From Sulfitobacter sp. THAF37 (GTDB lineage Bacteria > Pseudomonadota > Alphaproteobacteria > Rhodobacterales > Rhodobacteraceae): a DNA stretch of 64,000 bases. The position numbers and the translations under genes are program-made. Below are positions 1,009 through 53,766 of the stretch, piece after piece. Position 1 is the stretch's first letter. Each line of letters opens with the position of its first letter. Below the pieces are notes generated by a model that saw nothing but the letters and a program-made list of their open reading frames with translations, was not told where the DNA came from and did not search any database. Where the stretch lies: assembly GCF_009363555.1 (NCBI RefSeq), contig NZ_CP045372.1, forward strand, positions 3,297,501-3,361,500, given 5' to 3'.

Positions 1009-4000
1009 ATGACCGAATTTTCCAAGATACTCATTGCGAACCGTGGCGAAATCGCCATCCGCATCATGCGCGCCGCAAACGAGATGGGAAAAAAGACGGT
1101 CGCCGTCTTTGCCGAAGAGGACAAGCTGGGTCTGCACCGGTTCAAGGCGGACGAGGCCTATCGCATCGGTGAGGGGCTGGGGCCGGTCGCGGCCTATCTC
1201 AGCATTGACGAGATCATTCGCGTGGCCAAGGCGTCCGGCGCGGACGCGATCCACCCCGGCTATGGGCTGCTGTCGGAAAACCCCGATCTGGTGGACGCCT
1301 GCGTGCAGAACGGGATCACCTTCATCGGCCCGCGCGCCGAAACCATGCGGGCGCTGGGTGACAAGGCCAGCGCGCGGCGGGTGGCAATCGAGGCGGGCGT
1401 GCCGGTCATCCCCGCGTCGGAGGTGCTGGGCGACGACATGGACGCGATCCGCGCCGAGGCGAGGGAAATCGGCTATCCCTTCATGCTCAAGGCATCCTGG
1501 GGCGGCGGCGGACGCGGCATGCGCCCGATCATGAAGGAAGAGGAGCTGGAAGAGAAAATCCGCGAGGGGCGGCGCGAGGCCGAGGCCGCCTTCGGCAACG
1601 GCGAAGGCTACCTGGAAAAGATGATCCTCAAGGCCCGCCATGTCGAGGTGCAGATCCTGGGCGACAAACATGGCGAGATCTACCACCTGTATGAACGCGA
1701 CTGCTCCGTCCAGCGTCGCAACCAGAAGGTTGTCGAGCGCGCGCCCGCCCCGTACCTCAGCGACGCCCAGCGTGCGGAGCTGTGCGAGATGGGCCGCAAG
1801 ATCTGCGCCCATGTGGATTACGAATGCGCCGGCACCGTCGAGTTCCTGATGGATATGGAAGACGGGAAATTCTACTTCATCGAGGTGAACCCCCGCGTGC
1901 AGGTGGAACACACCGTGACCGAGGAAGTCACCGGCATCGACATCGTGCGGGCGCAGATCCTCATCGCCGAGGGCAAGACGATTGCCGAAGCCACCGGCAA
2001 GGCCAGCCAGGATGACGTCAAGCTGACCGGCCATGCGCTGCAGACCCGGATCACCACCGAGGACCCGCAGAACAACTTCATTCCCGACTATGGCCGTCTG
2101 ACCGCCTACCGCTCTGCCACGGGCATGGGCATCCGCCTGGACGGCGGGACCGCCTATGCGGGCGGTGTGATCACCCGCTACTACGACAGCCTGCTGACCA
2201 AGATCACCGCCAAGGCGCCCACGCCGGAAATGGCCATCGCCCGGATGGACCGCGCCCTGCGCGAATTCCGCATCCGGGGTGTCAGCACCAACATCGCCTT
2301 TGTCGAGAACCTGCTGAAACATCCGACCTTCCTGGACAATACCTACCACACCAAGTTCATCGACGAGACGCCGGAGCTGTTCCAGTTTTCCTCGCGCCGC
2401 GACCGGGGCACCAAGGTACTGACCTATATCGCGGACATCACCGTGAACGGCCATCCGGAGACAAAGGGCCACGCCCGCCCGCCCTCGCAGCTGCGCGACC
2501 CCAAACCGCCCGCGACACGGGGCGAGCCGATGATGGGCACCCGCAACCTGCTGGAGCAGAAAGGCCCGCAGGCCGTCGCCGACTGGATGAGCCAGCAGCG
2601 CCAGTTGCTGATCACCGACACCACCATGCGCGACGGGCATCAGTCGCTCTTGGCCACGCGGATGCGCAGCCATGACATGATCAAGGTGGCGCCCGCCTAT
2701 GCCGCCAACCTGCCGCAGCTTTTCAGCGTGGAATGCTGGGGCGGTGCCACCTTCGACGTGGCCTACCGGTTCTTGCAGGAATGCCCCTGGCAACGCCTGC
2801 GCGACCTGCGCGAACGCATGCCCAACCTGATGACCCAGATGCTGCTGCGCGCCTCCAACGGGGTGGGCTACACCAACTATCCCGACAACGTGGTGCAGCA
2901 TTTCGTGAAAACCGCCGCCAGCTCGGGCGTGGACGTCTTCCGCGTCTTCGACAGCCTGAACTGGGTGGAAAACATGCGCGTCGCCATGGACGCGGTGATC
3001 GAGGCGGAAAAGGTCTGCGAGGGCACGATCTGCTATACCGGCGACATCTATGATCCCGACCGGGCCAAGTACGACCTGAAGTATTACGTCAAGATGGGTC
3101 AGGACCTGAAGGCTGCGGGCGCCCATGTGCTGGGCCTCAAGGACATGGCGGGGCTGCTGAAACCCGCACAGGCGCGGGCGCTGGTGACGGCGCTGAAAAC
3201 AGAGGTCGGTCTGCCGATCCACTTCCACACCCATGACACGGCAGGCATTGCCTGCGCCACCATTCTCGCCGCGTCAGAGGCCGGGGTGGACGCCGTGGAT
3301 TGTGCGATGGATGCGCTGTCCGGGAACACCTCTCAGGCCACCCTGGGATCGGTCGTCTCGGCGCTGCAACATACCGACCGCGACACCGGGCTGGACATGT
3401 CCGCCATCCGCGAGATCTCGGACTATTGGGAAGAGGTGCGCGCGCATTACGCCGCGTTCGAGACCGGGATGCAGGCGCCCTCCTCCGAAGTCTACCTGCA
3501 CGAGATGCCCGGCGGCCAGTTCACCAACCTCAAGGCACAGGCGTCGTCCATGGGGCTGGATGACCGTTGGCCCCAGGTCGCCCGCACCTACCGCGACGTG
3601 AACCAAATGTTCGGCGATATCGTGAAGGTCACGCCAAGCTCCAAGGTCGTGGGTGACATGGCGCTGATGATGGTCAGCCAGGGCCTGACCCGCGCGCAGG
3701 TCGAAGACCCTGAAACCGATGTGTCCTTTCCCGATTCCGTGATCGACATGATGCGCGGCAACCTGGGCCAGCCGCCGGGTGGCTTTCCCGAAAAGATCCT
3801 GAAAAAGGTGCTCAAGGGAGAGAAACCGAACCTGGAGCGGCCGGGAAAACACCTCAAGCCGGTCGACCTGGAAGCGACCCGCAAGGAGCTGTCGGAGAAG
3901 TTCGACGATGTGGAGATCGACGAAGAGGATCTTTGCGGCTACCTGATGTATCCCAAGGTCTTTACCGACTACATGGAACGCCATCAGCAGTACGGCCCGG

Positions 4001-4449
4001 TCCGGACGCTGCCCACCTCCGCCTTCTTTTACGGGATGGAGCCGTCCGAAGAGATTTCGGCCGAAATCGACCCCGGCAAGACGCTGGAAATCCGGATGCA
4101 GGCGCTCAGCGAAACGACGGAGGACGGAGAGGTCAAGGTGTTCTTTGAACTCAACGGCCAGCCCCGCGTGATCCGGGTGCCGGACCGCAAGGTCGCGGGC
4201 ACCGCCGCGAAGCGCCCCAAGGCGGAAGCGGGCAATGACAAACATGTCGGCGCGCCGATGCCGGGTGTCGTCGCCTCGGTCGCGGCGGCCGTGGGCCAGA
4301 AGGTCAAACAGGGCGACCTGCTGCTGACCATAGAGGCGATGAAGATGGAAACCGGCATCCACGCCGAGCGCGAAGCGACGGTCAAGGCGGTGCATGTCCA
4401 GCCCGGCGCGCAGATCGACGCCAAGGACCTGCTGGTGGAGTTCGAATGA
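1009..4449 (+). CDS. pyc: Pyruvate carboxylase
   Basis: Single-chain biotin enzyme of 1146 residues that carboxylates pyruvate to oxaloacetate (anaplerosis). Order: biotin carboxylase (residues 1-450, ATP-grasp loop GGGGRGM near 164), carboxyltransferase starting at about 534 with TDTTMRDGHQSL, and a C-terminal biotinyl domain with AMKM, biotinylated Lys near 1112. I start at the ATG followed by TEFSKILIANRGE: it has an AAAGGAAG ribosome site and matches the usual family N-terminus. Upstream in-frame starts at 874 and 979 lack this. Length is normal. Allosteric control by acetyl-CoA is a family expectation, not seen here. Confidence 0.97.
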   Translation: MTEFSKILIANRGEIAIRIMRAANEMGKKTVAVFAEEDKLGLHRFKADEAYRIGEGLGPVAAYLSIDEIIRVAKASGADAIHPGYGLLSENPDLVDACVQNGITFIGPRAETMRALGDKASARRVAIEAGVPVIPASEVLGDDMDAIRAEAREIGYPFMLKASWGGGGRGMRPIMKEEELEEKIREGRREAEAAFGNGEGYLEKMILKARHVEVQILGDKHGEIYHLYERDCSVQRRNQKVVERAPAPYLSDAQRAELCEMGRKICAHVDYECAGTVEFLMDMEDGKFYFIEVNPRVQVEHTVTEEVTGIDIVRAQILIAEGKTIAEATGKASQDDVKLTGHALQTRITTEDPQNNFIPDYGRLTAYRSATGMGIRLDGGTAYAGGVITRYYDSLLTKITAKAPTPEMAIARMDRALREFRIRGVSTNIAFVENLLKHPTFLDNTYHTKFIDETPELFQFSSRRDRGTKVLTYIADITVNGHPETKGHARPPSQLRDPKPPATRGEPMMGTRNLLEQKGPQAVADWMSQQRQLLITDTTMRDGHQSLLATRMRSHDMIKVAPAYAANLPQLFSVECWGGATFDVAYRFLQECPWQRLRDLRERMPNLMTQMLLRASNGVGYTNYPDNVVQHFVKTAASSGVDVFRVFDSLNWVENMRVAMDAVIEAEKVCEGTICYTGDIYDPDRAKYDLKYYVKMGQDLKAAGAHVLGLKDMAGLLKPAQARALVTALKTEVGLPIHFHTHDTAGIACATILAASEAGVDAVDCAMDALSGNTSQATLGSVVSALQHTDRDTGLDMSAIREISDYWEEVRAHYAAFETGMQAPSSEVYLHEMPGGQFTNLKAQASSMGLDDRWPQVARTYRDVNQMFGDIVKVTPSSKVVGDMALMMVSQGLTRAQVEDPETDVSFPDSVIDMMRGNLGQPPGGFPEKILKKVLKGEKPNLERPGKHLKPVDLEATRKELSEKFDDVEIDEEDLCGYLMYPKVFTDYMERHQQYGPVRTLPTSAFFYGMEPSEEISAEIDPGKTLEIRMQALSETTEDGEVKVFFELNGQPRVIRVPDRKVAGTAAKRPKAEAGNDKHVGAPMPGVVASVAAAVGQKVKQGDLLLTIEAMKMETGIHAEREATVKAVHVQPGAQIDAKDLLVEFE

Positions 4450-4471
4450 AAGGAACCGCCCGGAGGTCCCG

Positions 4472-4867
4472 ATGCGGCTGTCGGCCCTGACACTGATCGT
4501 CCCGGACTATGACGAAGCCATCGCATATTACTGCGGCACACTTGGTTTTGTCCTGGCAGAGGACATTGATCAGGGCCGCAAACGCTGGGTTCGCGTCACA
4601 CCGACCGGCGGCGGCAGCGGCTTCATCCTTGCGCGGGCGGATGGTGAAGCGCAGCGGGCGGCCATCGGCAACCAGGGCGCGGGGCGGGTCTGGCTGTTCT
4701 TGCAAACAGACGATTTCGAACGGGATTACAATGCCTTGCGCGCCAAAGGTGTCACCTTCGAAGAAACGCCCCGGCAAGAGGTGTACGGGACCGTGGCTGT
4801 GTTCCGCGACTGCTTTGGCAACCGCTGGGACCTGATCGGCGACAGCGGCGGCGCAAGCGAAGGCTGA
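4472..4867 (+). CDS. VOC-superfamily (glyoxalase/dioxygenase fold) protein
   Basis: A 131-residue single-module vicinal-oxygen-chelate protein. The N-terminus LSALTLIVPDYDEAIAYYCGTLGF is the classic first beta-alpha unit, and the last third (ETPRQEVYGTVAVFRDCFGNRWDLIG) carries the usual closing strand with DxxGN. It starts 23 bp after pyc behind GGAGG, so it is probably cotranscribed with it. Such small proteins include glyoxalase I-like lyases and bleomycin-binding proteins; the sequence does not tell which ligand or metal chemistry applies. It converges on the TonB receptor gene 35 bp downstream. Confidence 0.8.
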   Translation: MRLSALTLIVPDYDEAIAYYCGTLGFVLAEDIDQGRKRWVRVTPTGGGSGFILARADGEAQRAAIGNQGAGRVWLFLQTDDFERDYNALRAKGVTFEETPRQEVYGTVAVFRDCFGNRWDLIGDSGGASEG

Positions 4868-4902
4868 GCCCCGCGCCCCCGCCGCCGCCCCGGCCCCGCC
4901 GA

Positions 4903-6945
4903 TCAGAACCGTGTCGTCAGCGACACCTTCAGCGTCCGCCCCGGTGCCTTCCGGGTGGGAGAGGACAGATGCCCGACGAAATCCTCGTCGAACAGGTTCT
5001 CGACACCAAAGCGCAGTTCGGTCCCGTCCAGCCACCCCCGGTCCGGCCGCCAGGTGGCGCGCAGGTTATGCGAGGTCCGGTCGGGCAGCGCAGCCCCCAG
5101 TGCATCCCGCCGGTCGGCGGCATGCACGACCTCCCAGCTCAGGTCAAAGTCATCGCCCCAGCGTTTGCCCAGGGTCAGCTGCACCCGGTCCGCCGGACTG
5201 TTGCGCCAGATCGCGGAGGTGCCGCCGGGGTTGAATTCGGTCCCCTCCCCGATATGCCCCGAAAGGTCCGCATAGATCCCCTCCGCCGTACCGTAAGAGG
5301 CTTCCAGCTCGACCCCCTTCGACTCGACGCTCTCAAGGTCCGGCCCCATGCCACCAGCCACCACGTAGCTGGTGATGTCGCGCAGCGTGGTGTGATATAG
5401 ATTGCCCCGGACCGTCAGACTGTCGTCCGCCGTGAACACAGCCCCTCCTGTATACGCCGCGCCGAATTCCAGCGTGTGGGATTTTTCCGCCGTTGCGATG
5501 CGCCGCTGCGCGGTGGCGCTGGTGCCCAGATCGTCGATGATCGGCAGCGATTCCGTATAGGCCGCACTGCCAAAGACAGAGAGGCCATTGCCGAAATCAT
5601 AGGCCAGCGCCAGCCCGCCCATCAGCGCGTCCTTGTCATAGCTGTCCGCCACCCCCGCAAGCGGCAGCGCCGAGGTGATGCGCGACGCCTCGTAGCGCAG
5701 GGCGGGTGTGATGGTGAACCGCCCCACCGACATTTCATCCACCACGAAGAGCGCCTGCCGGTTGTCGTGGCCACCGGGCGCGCCTGCAGCGGTGTTGTCG
5801 GCCCTGTCGCGCCGCTGAACCTCGAGTCCGGCCAGCATGTCATGCGATACTGCACCGGTCTGGAACAGGGCGCGGTTGCTGACGGTCAGCTTCGTTGTTT
5901 CATAGTGCTGGTCCGCGTTTACCGTAGCCAGAAGGCGCGGGAAGGACGGCGTCCCTTCCAGCGGTGAAGACCCCGGCACATAGTCGTATTCAATGATCTG
6001 ATCCGCGTAGGACAGATTTGCGCGCAGGTCGATCAGGTCGCTGGCGGGGTTGAACCGGTACTCCAGCACGGTCTGGGCCGTATCGGTCAGCCGGTCCACA
6101 TTGCCGAAACTGCCCCCCGTGGTATCGAACTGATCATAGGGCACATCCTTGTCGTCCGCCACGGTGCGCGAATGGCTGAAGGTCAGCGATTGCGCATCGT
6201 CCTGCCCAAAGGTGAATTTCCCCTTGGCCAGATAGGATGGCGTCTGGAACGCGCTGTTGCCGATCACGGCACCATCCCCGGATTGCAGATCGTTCTGATC
6301 CCGGAAGGAATAGTTCAGCAGGAATTCGGCGCGCGGCGTCGGCATCCAGGCCAGATTTGTCGAACTGACCTTGCCGTCCCCGTTGCTGCTGTACTCGAAC
6401 GTCTGGGACCCGCCAAAGCCCGGCACGCCGCCGGTGAAATCGGAGGCGTCCCTGGTCTCCAGCTTGACCACCCCGCCGACGATACCAGCGCCGTAGGCAA
6501 AGCTGCCGATGGTGCCGCGCAGCACCTCGACGCGGCGGTACAGCATCGGGTCGGTGAACAATTGCGTGCCGATGCGGTACAGTTCTTCGGATCCGACGCT
6601 GGCGCCATCCACCAGCACGGCGATCTTCTGGTCCGACCCGTAAGTCGTGTTCGCGCCGAAGCCACGGATGTTGATCCCCGACCCCTGCGGCGTGGTCCCG
6701 TTCACCAGCGAAACACCCGGCACCGAATCGATGAGCTGCGCCACGGTCCCCGCCTGCCGGTCAGCGATTTCTTCCTCGTCCACCACCGTCCGGGCCAGTG
6801 CCGTACCGTAGCTGAGATCGCGCTTGCCGGCAGTCAGGACAAGCGTACCCAGAAAACCGGGTGTGTCGTCGTCCTGCGCCAGGGCGGGGCTGGCGAGCGA
6901 CAGGCAAACAAGCGCGGTCGACCCGCGCAAAAGAGAGGTGAACAT
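4903..6945 (-). CDS. TonB-dependent outer-membrane receptor, probably for heme
   Basis: A 680-residue TonB receptor. Start chosen at the ATG with an upstream AAGGA and a Sec signal peptide (FTSLLRGSTALVCLSL, cleavage near ALAQ). A plug domain (about 40-165, containing IDSVPGVSL and NIRGFG) is followed by a 22-strand barrel ending in the aromatic KVSLTTRF. It is transcribed divergently from hmuSTUV, which is the main argument for heme as substrate. The FRAP/NPNL heme-receptor signature is not evident: the corresponding stretch reads YTESLPIIDDLG. It may therefore be a divergent heme receptor or take up another iron chelate. Confidence 0.85.
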   Translation of the reverse strand: MFTSLLRGSTALVCLSLASPALAQDDDTPGFLGTLVLTAGKRDLSYGTALARTVVDEEEIADRQAGTVAQLIDSVPGVSLVNGTTPQGSGINIRGFGANTTYGSDQKIAVLVDGASVGSEELYRIGTQLFTDPMLYRRVEVLRGTIGSFAYGAGIVGGVVKLETRDASDFTGGVPGFGGSQTFEYSSNGDGKVSSTNLAWMPTPRAEFLLNYSFRDQNDLQSGDGAVIGNSAFQTPSYLAKGKFTFGQDDAQSLTFSHSRTVADDKDVPYDQFDTTGGSFGNVDRLTDTAQTVLEYRFNPASDLIDLRANLSYADQIIEYDYVPGSSPLEGTPSFPRLLATVNADQHYETTKLTVSNRALFQTGAVSHDMLAGLEVQRRDRADNTAAGAPGGHDNRQALFVVDEMSVGRFTITPALRYEASRITSALPLAGVADSYDKDALMGGLALAYDFGNGLSVFGSAAYTESLPIIDDLGTSATAQRRIATAEKSHTLEFGAAYTGGAVFTADDSLTVRGNLYHTTLRDITSYVVAGGMGPDLESVESKGVELEASYGTAEGIYADLSGHIGEGTEFNPGGTSAIWRNSPADRVQLTLGKRWGDDFDLSWEVVHAADRRDALGAALPDRTSHNLRATWRPDRGWLDGTELRFGVENLFDEDFVGHLSSPTRKAPGRTLKVSLTTRF

Positions 6946-51424: not shown

Positions 51425-51444
51425 CGGAATTTTCGAAAATTCCG
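51425..51444. terminator. Perfect 20-bp palindrome with TTTTCGAAAA core
   Basis: CGGAATTTT mirrored by AAAATTCCG with CG between, in the region after the formate dehydrogenase-type gene. It resembles the neighbouring palindrome split by the insertion sequence. Together they were probably tandem transcription terminators for the minus-strand gene ending at 53767. Confidence 0.55.
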
Positions 51445-51453
51445 CCCCGATCT

Positions 51454-51461
51454 TTTCGAAA
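51454..51461. repeat. Target-site duplication, left copy (TTTCGAAA)
   Basis: TTTCGAAA directly abuts the left inverted repeat and is repeated at 53743-53750 after the right one. An 8-bp duplication is the IS1595-family size. Removing the element and one copy rebuilds a perfect 22-bp palindrome. Confidence 0.9.
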
Positions 51462-51485
51462 GGCGATTGTATATTTGACAAACCC
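51462..51485 (+). repeat. IS1595-type terminal inverted repeat, left
   Basis: 24 bp, starting GGCGATTGTATA, exact inverse of 53719-53742. It includes an outward-readable TTGACA-like hexamer. Confidence 0.92.
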
Positions 51486-51590
51486 GACTAACAAGGTGCG
51501 ACGGGCTGCTTGCCGTAGTATGGAGAGGGCTAGCAAATTGCCGAAAGGCTCATCCCCTTCCGTACCGTCGCACGCTCTACATACGGGGTC

Positions 51591-51743
51591 TTAGCTAGTT
51601 CCGCCATCCTTGTCTTTATCGTCCGGCTTCTGCTTCACCAGCTTGCGCAGACGCTCGTTGAACCGTTCCTCGTCGTCGTCCGTCTCTAGCTGGCGGGCGG
51701 CTTCCTTGAAGCGTTCTAGTTGGGACTTTTCAGAATGGCTCAT
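51591..51743 (-). CDS. Small charged ORF of the IS passenger cassette
   Basis: A 50-residue protein read from the ATG preceded by GGAG; it overlaps the upstream gene's stop by 14 bp. Sequence is highly charged and helical (LERFKEAARQLETDDDEERFNERLRKLVKQK) and ends in a Lys/Asp-rich tail. Overlap and ribosome site support real translation in the same operon. It could be an accessory to the antitoxin/toxin pair. No named family recognised. Confidence 0.65.
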   Translation of the reverse strand: MSHSEKSQLERFKEAARQLETDDDEERFNERLRKLVKQKPDDKDKDGGTS

Positions 51744-52140
51744 CATCTTCTCCAGTCCAGTCTGTTGCATCTGGATCCGACCACTCAACCCATAGGAGTT
51801 CGACTTCTCGCGTTTCGCTAATTACTCTAAACCATATTGAGTAAGCCGGAACAATTTCAGGCCCCCGCCAGTGCAGTTCGGTCTTTGCTAGATAAATGCC
51901 TGCTCTGTGGGTCGGCTGGAAACCTTCAGGGTTTCGGCTGATCCCCAGCTTTACTGCGGCAATATCTTCTTCAATTACCTGATGCCCGCCGCAATTTCCT
52001 ACGCCACGGGCGAAGCTGTCAGCTTCACTTATCTGCCATCCATTACCAGCCAAATTCAGCAGCCAGTTCGTCCGTTCTTTTTCGGTCTTTTTCGGTCGGC
52101 TTCTCGTCAGAAAGAAATGCCAGTTCATACGGCATTGCAT
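51730..52140 (-). CDS. Probable toxin partner of the Panacea antitoxin-like protein
   Basis: A 136-residue protein with no named domain that I can assign. The 5' end overlaps the Panacea gene by about 98 bp (or 86 bp if the ATG at 52128 is used), in another frame. Its C-terminal half has alternating strands (AGIYLAKTELHW, YSIWFRVISETREVELLWVEW) that recall RelE/ParE-type mRNA interferases or gyrase poisons, but this is only a resemblance. Position next to a DUF4065 gene is the main reason for the toxin call. Confidence 0.55.
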   Translation of the reverse strand: MQCRMNWHFFLTRSRPKKTEKERTNWLLNLAGNGWQISEADSFARGVGNCGGHQVIEEDIAAVKLGISRNPEGFQPTHRAGIYLAKTELHWRGPEIVPAYSIWFRVISETREVELLWVEWSDPDATDWTGEDDEPF

Positions 52141-52618
52141 CGCCTAGGTTCATTACTCTCCAACGAACATCATGGGATACGTCACTGACCTGTGAACCAG
52201 TTTGGGGCCATAGCTCACGTATAACTTCGTCAACCAAGGATATCTCATCATCCGAGAAGTGGCTCAAGACCGGATCCCGCAAGGCAACTGTTCTGTCCTG
52301 CGTATATCCGCCTGGAACATCAACCTTGTCCACACGAAGTGCGCCCTCATCGACCAAGGCGCGCCGCACGTGTAACAACGATTTGGGCGCAGGCCCAAGT
52401 CTCAGCTTCTGGTACCGAACACCCGTAAGAGGCATGCCGAAGCGTCGGAACGCACGAAAATCTGAATAATAAAGTATTTTGTTGAGCTTGATCGCACCGA
52501 AGTAGGCATCGTCGGCGCACTTCGATGAGATATAGACGATCAGCTCGCGGAAGCGTTGTATCCCGCGAGGTACGTCGAACGTCTCATGTAGTGGCCGATG
52601 CTTTGTCACAACCTGCAT
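52043..52618 (-). CDS. Panacea-domain (DUF4065, SocA-like) antitoxin-type protein
   Basis: A 191-residue protein. Residues 20-90 match the Panacea domain: FRELIVYISSKCADDAYFGAIKLNKILYYSDFRAF, GMPLTGVRYQKLRLGPAP, then RALVDEGAL. Panacea proteins are antitoxins that pair with many unrelated toxins; SocA of Caulobacter is the founding relative. It has its own AT-rich promoter region (TATATATGG-like, near 52640-52660) and AGAGG ribosome site, so it need not rely on transposase transcription. It overlaps the candidate toxin gene. Confidence 0.85.
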   Translation of the reverse strand: MQVVTKHRPLHETFDVPRGIQRFRELIVYISSKCADDAYFGAIKLNKILYYSDFRAFRRFGMPLTGVRYQKLRLGPAPKSLLHVRRALVDEGALRVDKVDVPGGYTQDRTVALRDPVLSHFSDDEISLVDEVIRELWPQTGSQVSDVSHDVRWRVMNLGDAMPYELAFLSDEKPTEKDRKRTDELAAEFGW

Positions 52619-52707
52619 GTCCTCTTTGATTACAAGCTATCTACCATATATAGTCTTCGTTACCAATTTCTATCTGACAGCAGAGATCGACATTCTTGCG
52701 GCGTTAC

Positions 52708-53610
52708 TCATCTGCAATCGCCGCAGCTGTAAGTCAGCCGCTTGCCAACTGTAGCACGCAGCGCGATCTCGCCACGCTCCAAGTCTTCCACACCGTTCGC
52801 AACGCGGTTATTGTAACGAAAATCAAACTCTGCAGCGTAGCGGTGCAGGTGCTGCTTGCCGCAGTGCTGATACACGCCCTTCATGCCGCGCTTGAAGATG
52901 CTGTAGAAGCCTTCAACCGTGTTGGTATGAACCTCTGGGTTTGCGCGGCTCACATACTCATCCTTGCCATGCTCAACGACGCCGTGCGCTGCAAATTGGC
53001 GACCAATGGTGATGTAGTGGCGGGCTTCATCCCTATGCAGAACCGCCTCGCGGGACATGTTTTCATTCAAGATTTCGGTGATGGTTTTCACCTTGATGTC
53101 GTCCACAACAATGGACTTGGCTTGCTTTGTGTCGCGGTCCACCAGCGTGACCATTTTCATCTTGTGCGCCCAACCGCGCGCACCCTTCTTCTTTGGGTGG
53201 TCCGGGTCTTGGCCGTAAAAGGTCTCGTCAACCTCGACAGCGCCGCCATTACTGCCGAAGGGGGCCATTGCGCCGGAACGCATACACTCGCGGATGCGAT
53301 GGGCCAGGAACCAAGCGGACTTGTAGGTGACGCCCAGAACGCGGTGAAGCTGGTGGCTGCTGATGCCCTTCTTGCTTGATACCATCAGGTGGATTGCCTG
53401 GAGCCACAGGTGCAGCGGCAGGTGGCTTTCCTCGAAGATCGTGCCCTTGCGGACAGTGAACTGCTTGCGGCACTCCCGGCACTTCCAAAGACCGTGACGC
53501 TCTTTGCCTTCGGGGTTCTTGGCGCTCGGCTTGGTGCGAACGCCCGTCAGGGGATAGGCGCTGTCCACGACACCACAGTGGGGGCAGACCGGACCATCAG
53601 CCCAAAGCAT
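52708..53610 (-). CDS. IS1595-family transposase
   Basis: A 300-residue DDE-type transposase from the first ATG. N-terminal zinc ribbon (CPHC...CREC), then the catalytic core with VEVDETFYG, HRDEARHY and the hallmark HTNTVEGFYSIFKRGMKGVYQH. The frame continues 21 codons upstream encoding SVLSAKYIHDEAAAFAHVEA, which is the conserved family N-terminus. At the expected start (53671-53673) the codon is ATA, with AGAGG eight bases before. So either ATA is used weakly or the protein now starts at the internal ATG. Confidence 0.92.
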   Translation of the reverse strand: MLWADGPVCPHCGVVDSAYPLTGVRTKPSAKNPEGKERHGLWKCRECRKQFTVRKGTIFEESHLPLHLWLQAIHLMVSSKKGISSHQLHRVLGVTYKSAWFLAHRIRECMRSGAMAPFGSNGGAVEVDETFYGQDPDHPKKKGARGWAHKMKMVTLVDRDTKQAKSIVVDDIKVKTITEILNENMSREAVLHRDEARHYITIGRQFAAHGVVEHGKDEYVSRANPEVHTNTVEGFYSIFKRGMKGVYQHCGKQHLHRYAAEFDFRYNNRVANGVEDLERGEIALRATVGKRLTYSCGDCR

Positions 53611-53718
53611 CGCTTCGACATGGGCGAAAGCTGCTGCTTCGTCGTGGATGTATTTGGCGGACAGAACGGATATGGCGAAAACCTCTAACTTGTTGTGTTA
53701 GAAGTAGGCTTTCACCTT

Positions 53719-53742
53719 GGGTTTGTCAAATATACAATCGCC
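53719..53742 (-). repeat. IS1595-type terminal inverted repeat, right
   Basis: 24 bp, exact reverse complement of 51462-51485, at the transposase-promoter end of the element. Confidence 0.92.
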
Positions 53743-53750
53743 TTTCGAAA
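53743..53750. repeat. Target-site duplication, right copy (TTTCGAAA)
   Basis: Second copy of the 8-bp target repeat; followed by AGATCGG, the other half of the interrupted palindrome. Confidence 0.9.
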
Positions 53751-53766
53751 AGATCGGTTTCCCGCC

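Follow-up and report, generated by a model that had tools for sequence, protein, structure and literature searches.

A complete IS1595-family transporter insertion sequence in Sulfitobacter sp. THAF37 with a predicted Panacea/RelE-fold toxin–antitoxin cargo

The window analysed here comprises 64,000 nucleotides of Sulfitobacter sp. THAF37 (contig NZ_CP045372.1, positions 3,297,501 to 3,361,500) and contains, at 51462–53742, a complete transporter insertion sequence (tIS) of the IS1595 family. The element holds four genes, all on the minus strand, namely an IS1595 transposase, a SocA_Panacea gene, a toxin candidate and a small open reading frame (ORF), between terminal inverted repeats (TIRs) that are flanked by target-site duplications (TSDs). 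The features are as follows:

51426–51461, with the remainder of the palindrome at 53743–53757, no strand: dispersed host palindromic repeat, the second palindrome being the insertion target
51454–51461, no strand: left TSD TTTCGAAA, 8 bp, read from the sequence and scored
51462–51485, no strand: TIR distal to the transposase, 24/24 match
51591–51743, minus strand: small ORF, 50 aa from ATG 51743 (65 aa from TTG 51788), retained in IS1595 relatives whether or not they carry toxin–antitoxin cargo
51616–51730, minus strand: conserved block B (element positions 2013–2127), 80–85% nucleotide identity to L006, L105 and L098
51730–52053, minus strand: toxin candidate, 107 aa from TTG 52053 (136 aa from ATG 52140), predicted RelE/ParE/HigB-type fold
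51731–52729, minus strand: cargo slot, not shared with the closest relatives, which have other or almost no cargo; boundary taken from the comparison with L006
52043–52618, minus strand: Panacea (SocA-type) antitoxin-like protein, 191 aa, PF13274
52708–53610, minus strand: IS1595 transposase, 300 aa from the first ATG
53719–53742, no strand: TIR at the transposase end, 24/24 match
53743–53750, no strand: right TSD TTTCGAAA, 8 bp, read from the sequence and scored

The element is bounded by perfect inverted arms (51447–51485 and 53719–53757; 39 nt, 100% complementary), which consist of the 24-bp TIRs (GGCGATTGTATATTTGACAAACCC) and the palindromic target. The TIRs open with GG and are accompanied by an 8-bp duplication, as is the hallmark of the IS1595 family; with shuffled tails as a control, the combined test for TIRs and TSDs gave 0/24 hits. 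The transposase matches PF12762 (DDE_Tnp_IS1595) at 1.6e-29 and the N-terminal zinc ribbon PF12760 at 1.3e-8, as well as NCBIfam NF033547 at 186 bits (cut-off 75), which places it in the IS1595 family. In the sibling genome G681 the site is empty, the joined flanks freed of the element aligning across the junction at 82% over 1245 columns. Sibling G682 also aligns over the junction, with a short left arm, and the remaining sibling loci align on the right flank alone or not across the junction at all. The initial annotation, made from the letters of the window, had proposed a complete IS1595 element, and these observations bear it out. The passenger genes lie between the ends and are probably dispensable for transposition, the closest relative, L006, being without them. 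The whole element is present once in the 4.26-Mb genome, and the further copies for which a search had been recommended came to no second whole copy. Another IS1595 element, L075 (G000:C1:3370682-3371092; ends 21/24, duplication ACGGCGTG), lies about 20 kb downstream of it and is a distant relative.

The 191-aa protein matches PF13274 at 1e-13 and 52.6 bits (cut-off 25.7) and belongs to the Panacea (SocA) family. The pair that it forms with the toxin candidate lies 89 bp from the transposase, and the two genes overlap by 11 nt when the 107-aa form of the candidate is taken. That form, from TTG 52053, seems more likely than the 136-aa form, from ATG 52140, and is the reading of database entry P0001; the three passenger genes are on one strand, as described earlier, but the 136-aa start is probably not the right one. 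The Pfam match and the conserved overlapping partner support the earlier reading of an antitoxin-like Panacea gene directly followed by a probable toxin gene. Searched against Pfam, NCBIfam, PADLOC and solved-structure sequences, the toxin candidate gave nothing over any cut-off. At the level of the structural model a RelE/ParE/HigB-type fold is predicted, so that the toxin family, not recognised in the initial annotation, can now be placed by its predicted fold. The likeness to this superfamily thus lies in the predicted fold, and the difference in the lack of a detectable sequence match.

A single-sequence search returned the toxin candidate alone; since relatives came to light through loci and a profile, the idea that it is an orphan was rejected. 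The profile search yielded 14 proteins at E ≤0.01; in 198 genomes of the family, the candidate was met in its own genome and in one weak 37% match inside a 357-aa frame. In Roseivivax jejudonensis (L007), Paracoccus haematequi (L008) and a Kiloniellales bin (L009), the gene immediately after Panacea encodes a relative 36–43% identical to the candidate, and a viral contig (L032) carries a Panacea pair with the same match values as L008. More distant relatives follow Panacea in L033 and L036. Two of the 14 profile matches, P0124 and P0128, are probably on the same contigs as the Panacea proteins P0007 and P0014, because the longest contigs listed for them are equal in size. With L010, described below, a conserved partner adjoins Panacea at L007, L008/L032, L009, L036, L033 and L010. 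In P0024, a single open frame runs from the end of an IS1595 transposase into Panacea.

Nucleotide comparison of whole elements resolved three conserved blocks, namely the left end with the transposase (about 1 kb), some 100–125 bp holding the small ORF, and the last 23–25 bp. In this order, the window element is 78.9%, 85.2% and 100% identical to L006, a Pseudosulfitobacter plasmid element with almost no cargo; 75.8%, 80.2% and 95.8% identical to L105, which has a 200-aa cargo gene; and 74.2%, 83.8% and 100% identical to L098, from Sulfitobacter guttiformis pSD118, which has a two-gene cargo. Block B opens with the final base of the toxin stop codon. Two elements of one genome, G101, are 93.0%, 89.5% and 100% identical in these blocks, whereas L077 carries Panacea and a toxin candidate and L074 a DUF3800 gene (1.2e-11). 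Being a homopolymer of A, the duplication of L074 is weak evidence; in L098 and L101 the ends match, but no perfect duplication accompanies them. Judged by these alignments, the transposase block and the small-ORF block stay fixed while the cargo between them is exchanged.

The small ORF had been counted as a charged third member of the cassette. A hidden Markov model (HMM) built from eight copies matches 13 further elements among the 54 rows searched (11 of the 13 at ≤1.4e-6), on the transposase strand every time, and these include elements without a Panacea gene; the 50-aa reading from ATG 51743 is the one common to relatives. Over 15 pairs, codon positions 1, 2 and 3 differ 148, 117 and 208 times, a coding-like pattern. 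From the conserved middle block and the HMM matches in elements without Panacea, it follows that the small ORF belongs to the element and not to the cassette, and its assignment as a third cassette gene was rejected.

A cassette that never travelled with IS1595 repeats elsewhere had been named as the outcome that would speak against the proposal. It does travel with them in L036/L077 and, distantly, in L010, and other Panacea pairs do so in L070, L072 and L073. L036/L077, from G101 in the same family, has ends of 21/24, the duplication CTAGAAAA, a transposase 59% and a Panacea protein 40% identical to those of the window, a toxin candidate and the small ORF. L010, from an Acidobacteriaceae bin, has ends of 22/24 and the duplication CCTCTGAC; its Panacea gene and a 92-aa gene lie on the strand opposite the transposase, the latter being assigned as a toxin relative by position and profile alignment alone (23% identity). 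Of 385 genomes sampled from the class, 58 contain a Panacea match, and in five of these (own, G433, G474, G512 and G519) a Panacea gene lies ≤2.5 kb from an IS1595 transposase match. With our own genome left out, four such neighbours were seen where 0.28 would be expected (Poisson P 2e-4; counts entered by hand). In L070 (G512), L072 (G433) and L073 (G519), Panacea lies between matching ends that are flanked by a perfect duplication. The partners differ: one, of 125 aa, has hydrophobic stretches, the others are of 148–166 aa and 124 aa, and none has a Pfam match over cut-off. Among 25 loci from one genome-contig scan, an IS1595 transposase match was present in two, complete in L010 and a fragment in L014; L037, like L014, has transposase fragments only. 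In a Panacea tree of 60 of the 66 sequences (L032, a near copy, and five fragments <120 aa were left out), six changes of label are required to account for the six IS-borne rows, and well-supported branches force every one of them; L073 sits on a long branch.

A search with the transposase alone found matches in 71 of the 385 class genomes. From the best 50 transposase rows (E ≤7.6e-67), three partial ones were left out (G531, G591 and one of G321); of the remaining 47, G433:C7 is L072, already delimited, and the other 46, own included, were scanned for ends, which were found in 34, with a perfect duplication in 31. None of the 34 elements with ends is <1.3 kb, and their median is 2483 bp. The cargo was compared with Pfam by one to three ORFs per element, chosen by a greedy length rule, so that some may be antisense artefacts (e.g. 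in L119). A toxin-, antitoxin- or defence-type domain over cut-off was found in 10 of the 35 delimited elements:

L001 and L072: Panacea
L107: DUF433 and PIN_10
L109 and L111: PIN
L122: HEPN, just over cut-off
L131: NYN
L135: GmrSD_N and HNH, 1900–3552
L139: RelA_SpoT, 2203–3381
L141: GmrSD_N and HEPN_MAE_28990, 3535–5281

Beyond these ten, L127 carries DUF1828. The RelA_SpoT and GmrSD_N cargo of L139, L135 and L141 possibly represents mobile toxin or defence modules. Outside the class sample, delimited elements of Methylobacterium oryzae pMOC1 (L102) and Roseomonas marmotae p1318-1 (L103) have the gene order transposase, 266–288-aa gene, PIN gene, small ORF. In the transposase tree, in which L010, L070 and L075 are long branches, a well-supported group of 18 rows (96/99) contains every one of the five PIN pairs as well as three of the six Panacea carriers; 12 rows of this group come from the unselected sample, and five of them, own included, have a PIN or Panacea pair.

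Some further features of these relatives may be recorded. An antisense-oriented cargo family of 262–313 aa is common to L110, L122 and L133 (25–37% identical). A two-gene cargo, consisting of a 247–285-aa gene and a 163–182-aa partner, recurs in L098, L127 and L130; the larger gene is the DUF1828 gene in L127, is weakly DUF1829-like in L098 (0.018) and is unmatched in L130, where the likeness was judged by eye. L113 (G372:C85) consists of two adjacent IS1595 elements in opposite orientation, with the transposase ends facing each other and the duplications CTTAAAAA and TTTTAAGG. The longest element of the class sample, L111 (4306 bp), has a 532-aa antisense ORF (2625–4223) that looks DNA methyltransferase-like by eye.

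We consider it likely, with a probability of roughly 0.7, that the window element is a transporter IS of the IS1595 family whose predicted Panacea/RelE-fold toxin–antitoxin cargo aids its retention. By analogy with the tested PanA–PanT pairs described in PMC8832971, the Panacea protein would bind and neutralise the product of the overlapping gene, which might be toxic through mRNA cleavage or gyrase poisoning. A cell that lost the element or its surroundings would then be exposed to residual toxin, and keeping the element would be favoured. The persistence of the transposon would probably be owed in part to cargo of this kind and not to frequent jumping. The transposase frame of this copy extends to an ATA at 53673–53671, where ATG was present in 11 of the 11 relatives inspected, and the next in-frame ATG follows 21 codons past it; this copy may for that reason move rarely. 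The altered start and the single copy are neither proof nor refutation of an addiction role.

The components of this proposal have precedents. Passenger-carrying tIS of the IS1595 family, such as ISNha5 with its transcription regulators, are described in PMC11891212 (citing Siguier et al. 2009), and the window element resembles them in its transposase, its 8-bp duplication and the passengers between its ends; it differs from ISNha5 as presented there in that its cargo is a Panacea/RelE-fold pair and its slot is bounded by a conserved small ORF. Tn3-family transposons likewise embed two-gene toxin–antitoxin units, with several toxin families, including RelE/ParE, and repeated acquisition (PMC7157771). 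Those transposons are larger, however, and the pairs lie by the resolvase and res site, whereas the element of the window is of the IS1595 family, measures 2.3 kb and gave no resolvase in the scan of its four proteins; the antitoxin families named in the consulted part of PMC7157771 do not include Panacea. As in PanAT systems, which consist of Panacea/DUF4065 antitoxins with ParE among the predicted partners and often lie near transposases (PMC8832971), a Panacea gene adjoins a toxin gene, here a candidate. The differences are that the toxin family of the window reaches no Pfam model and that transposases are treated in that paper as neighbours or spurious partners, whereas the pair described here is enclosed by the repeats of delimited elements. 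Among the matches listed in the openly readable literature, there was neither a toxin–antitoxin pair, Panacea or other, inside an IS1595 element nor an exchangeable slot. Passenger-carrying IS1595 elements, Tn3 toxin–antitoxin pairs and PanATs near transposases were already known. It has been speculated in PMC8832971 that transposons are a route by which many unrelated toxins become paired with Panacea; delimited IS1595 elements with the pair, swapped cargo and the Panacea and DUF3800 versions in G101 offer a concrete vehicle. They also prompt one to ask whether so small an insertion sequence, of about 2 kb, can impose a cost on its own loss. A bolder extension, which we hold doubtful, is that this branch of IS1595 is a dedicated toxin–antitoxin and defence shuttle, in which one unrelated toxin pair after another refills the slot and the small protein acts in cassette exchange or cargo tethering. 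If true, a ~2-kb element would have acquired the kinds of addiction and immunity function that plasmids and Tn3-type transposons are known to have.

Several observations weigh against a cargo that serves retention. An IS1595 transposase was not found in the L007, L008/L032 and L009 loci, and the occurrence of the pair there implies that it is not dedicated to the transposon. A Panacea search on plasmids gave three distant records only; Panacea of G474 stands beside a transposase with no TIRs and TSD found even in a wider stretch; and in 24 of the 35 delimited elements the scanned cargo ORFs have no Pfam family over cut-off. Other observations concern the RelE assignment: a second model, of the L036 toxin, is weaker, with a predicted local distance difference test (pLDDT) of 73.9, a predicted template modelling score (pTM) of 0.60 and a best Foldseek E of 0.034, although HigB/ParE entries lead, and solved-structure sequences gave no RelE-type match to the toxin family. 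None of its 18 members is over cut-off in Pfam, and the candidate is filed as RelE-fold and not as a RelE family member because only a sub-threshold YhaV match, at 0.029 and for one member, was obtained. The single-copy state and the ATA in the transposase frame count on the same side.

The main rival, because the other cargo of the group is defence-type, sees the cargo as a module for anti-phage defence or for competition between elements, hitchhiking on the transporter IS with retention as a by-product. GmrSD_N with HEPN_MAE_28990 (L141) or HNH (L135), RelA_SpoT (L139), HEPN (L122), NYN (L131) and DUF3800 (L074) in relatives speak for it, as does the related Panacea pair on viral contig L032. 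Against this, the four window proteins have no PADLOC match, and the ten cargo proteins of relatives gave weak ones only (E 4e-4 and 0.0095); we regard this rival as a tentative possibility. That the pair is tied to transposition, Panacea or the toxin controlling transposase expression or host growth during jumping in the way proposed for toxin–antitoxin pairs of the Tn3 family, would accord with four co-directional genes, with the pair 89 bp behind the transposase and with the pairs embedded in the Tn3 transposition module (PMC7157771). It is unlikely, since L006 retains transposase, small ORF and ends without the pair, the pair of L010 is on the opposite strand, and a promoter scan of the 89-bp gap gave no minus-strand candidate. 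We consider it similarly improbable that a decaying element trapped genes with no effect on its own fate. A single copy, a lost transposase ATG and cargo that varies freely among relatives would fit such neutrality; the occurrence of IS1595-borne Panacea on six separate branches argues for selection on the cargo class, as do the toxin-, antitoxin- or defence-type domains in 10 of 35 unselected elements, and the open frames are intact. Finally, a type VI (SocAB-like) mode, in which Panacea, itself the SocA domain, would pass its partner to a protease rather than inhibit it through binding, is suggested by matches of the IS-borne Panacea of L070, L072 and L073 to NCBIfam SocA at 84, 63 and 24 bits (cut-off 190). 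SocB is a different kind of protein from the RelE-like partner predicted here, and the window Panacea protein has no NCBIfam SocA match up to E 1. The validated pairs described in PMC8832971 form complexes typical of type II, and the type VI mode is accordingly very improbable.

The palindromic repeat into which the element inserted is dispersed within the genus: at ≤3 mismatches, four copies were found in our own genome, 18 in G681 and none in G683, and the reversed pattern, used as a control, gave 0 copies in each of the three. At the insertion site, the double-palindrome repeat adjoins a formate-dehydrogenase-type flavoprotein gene.
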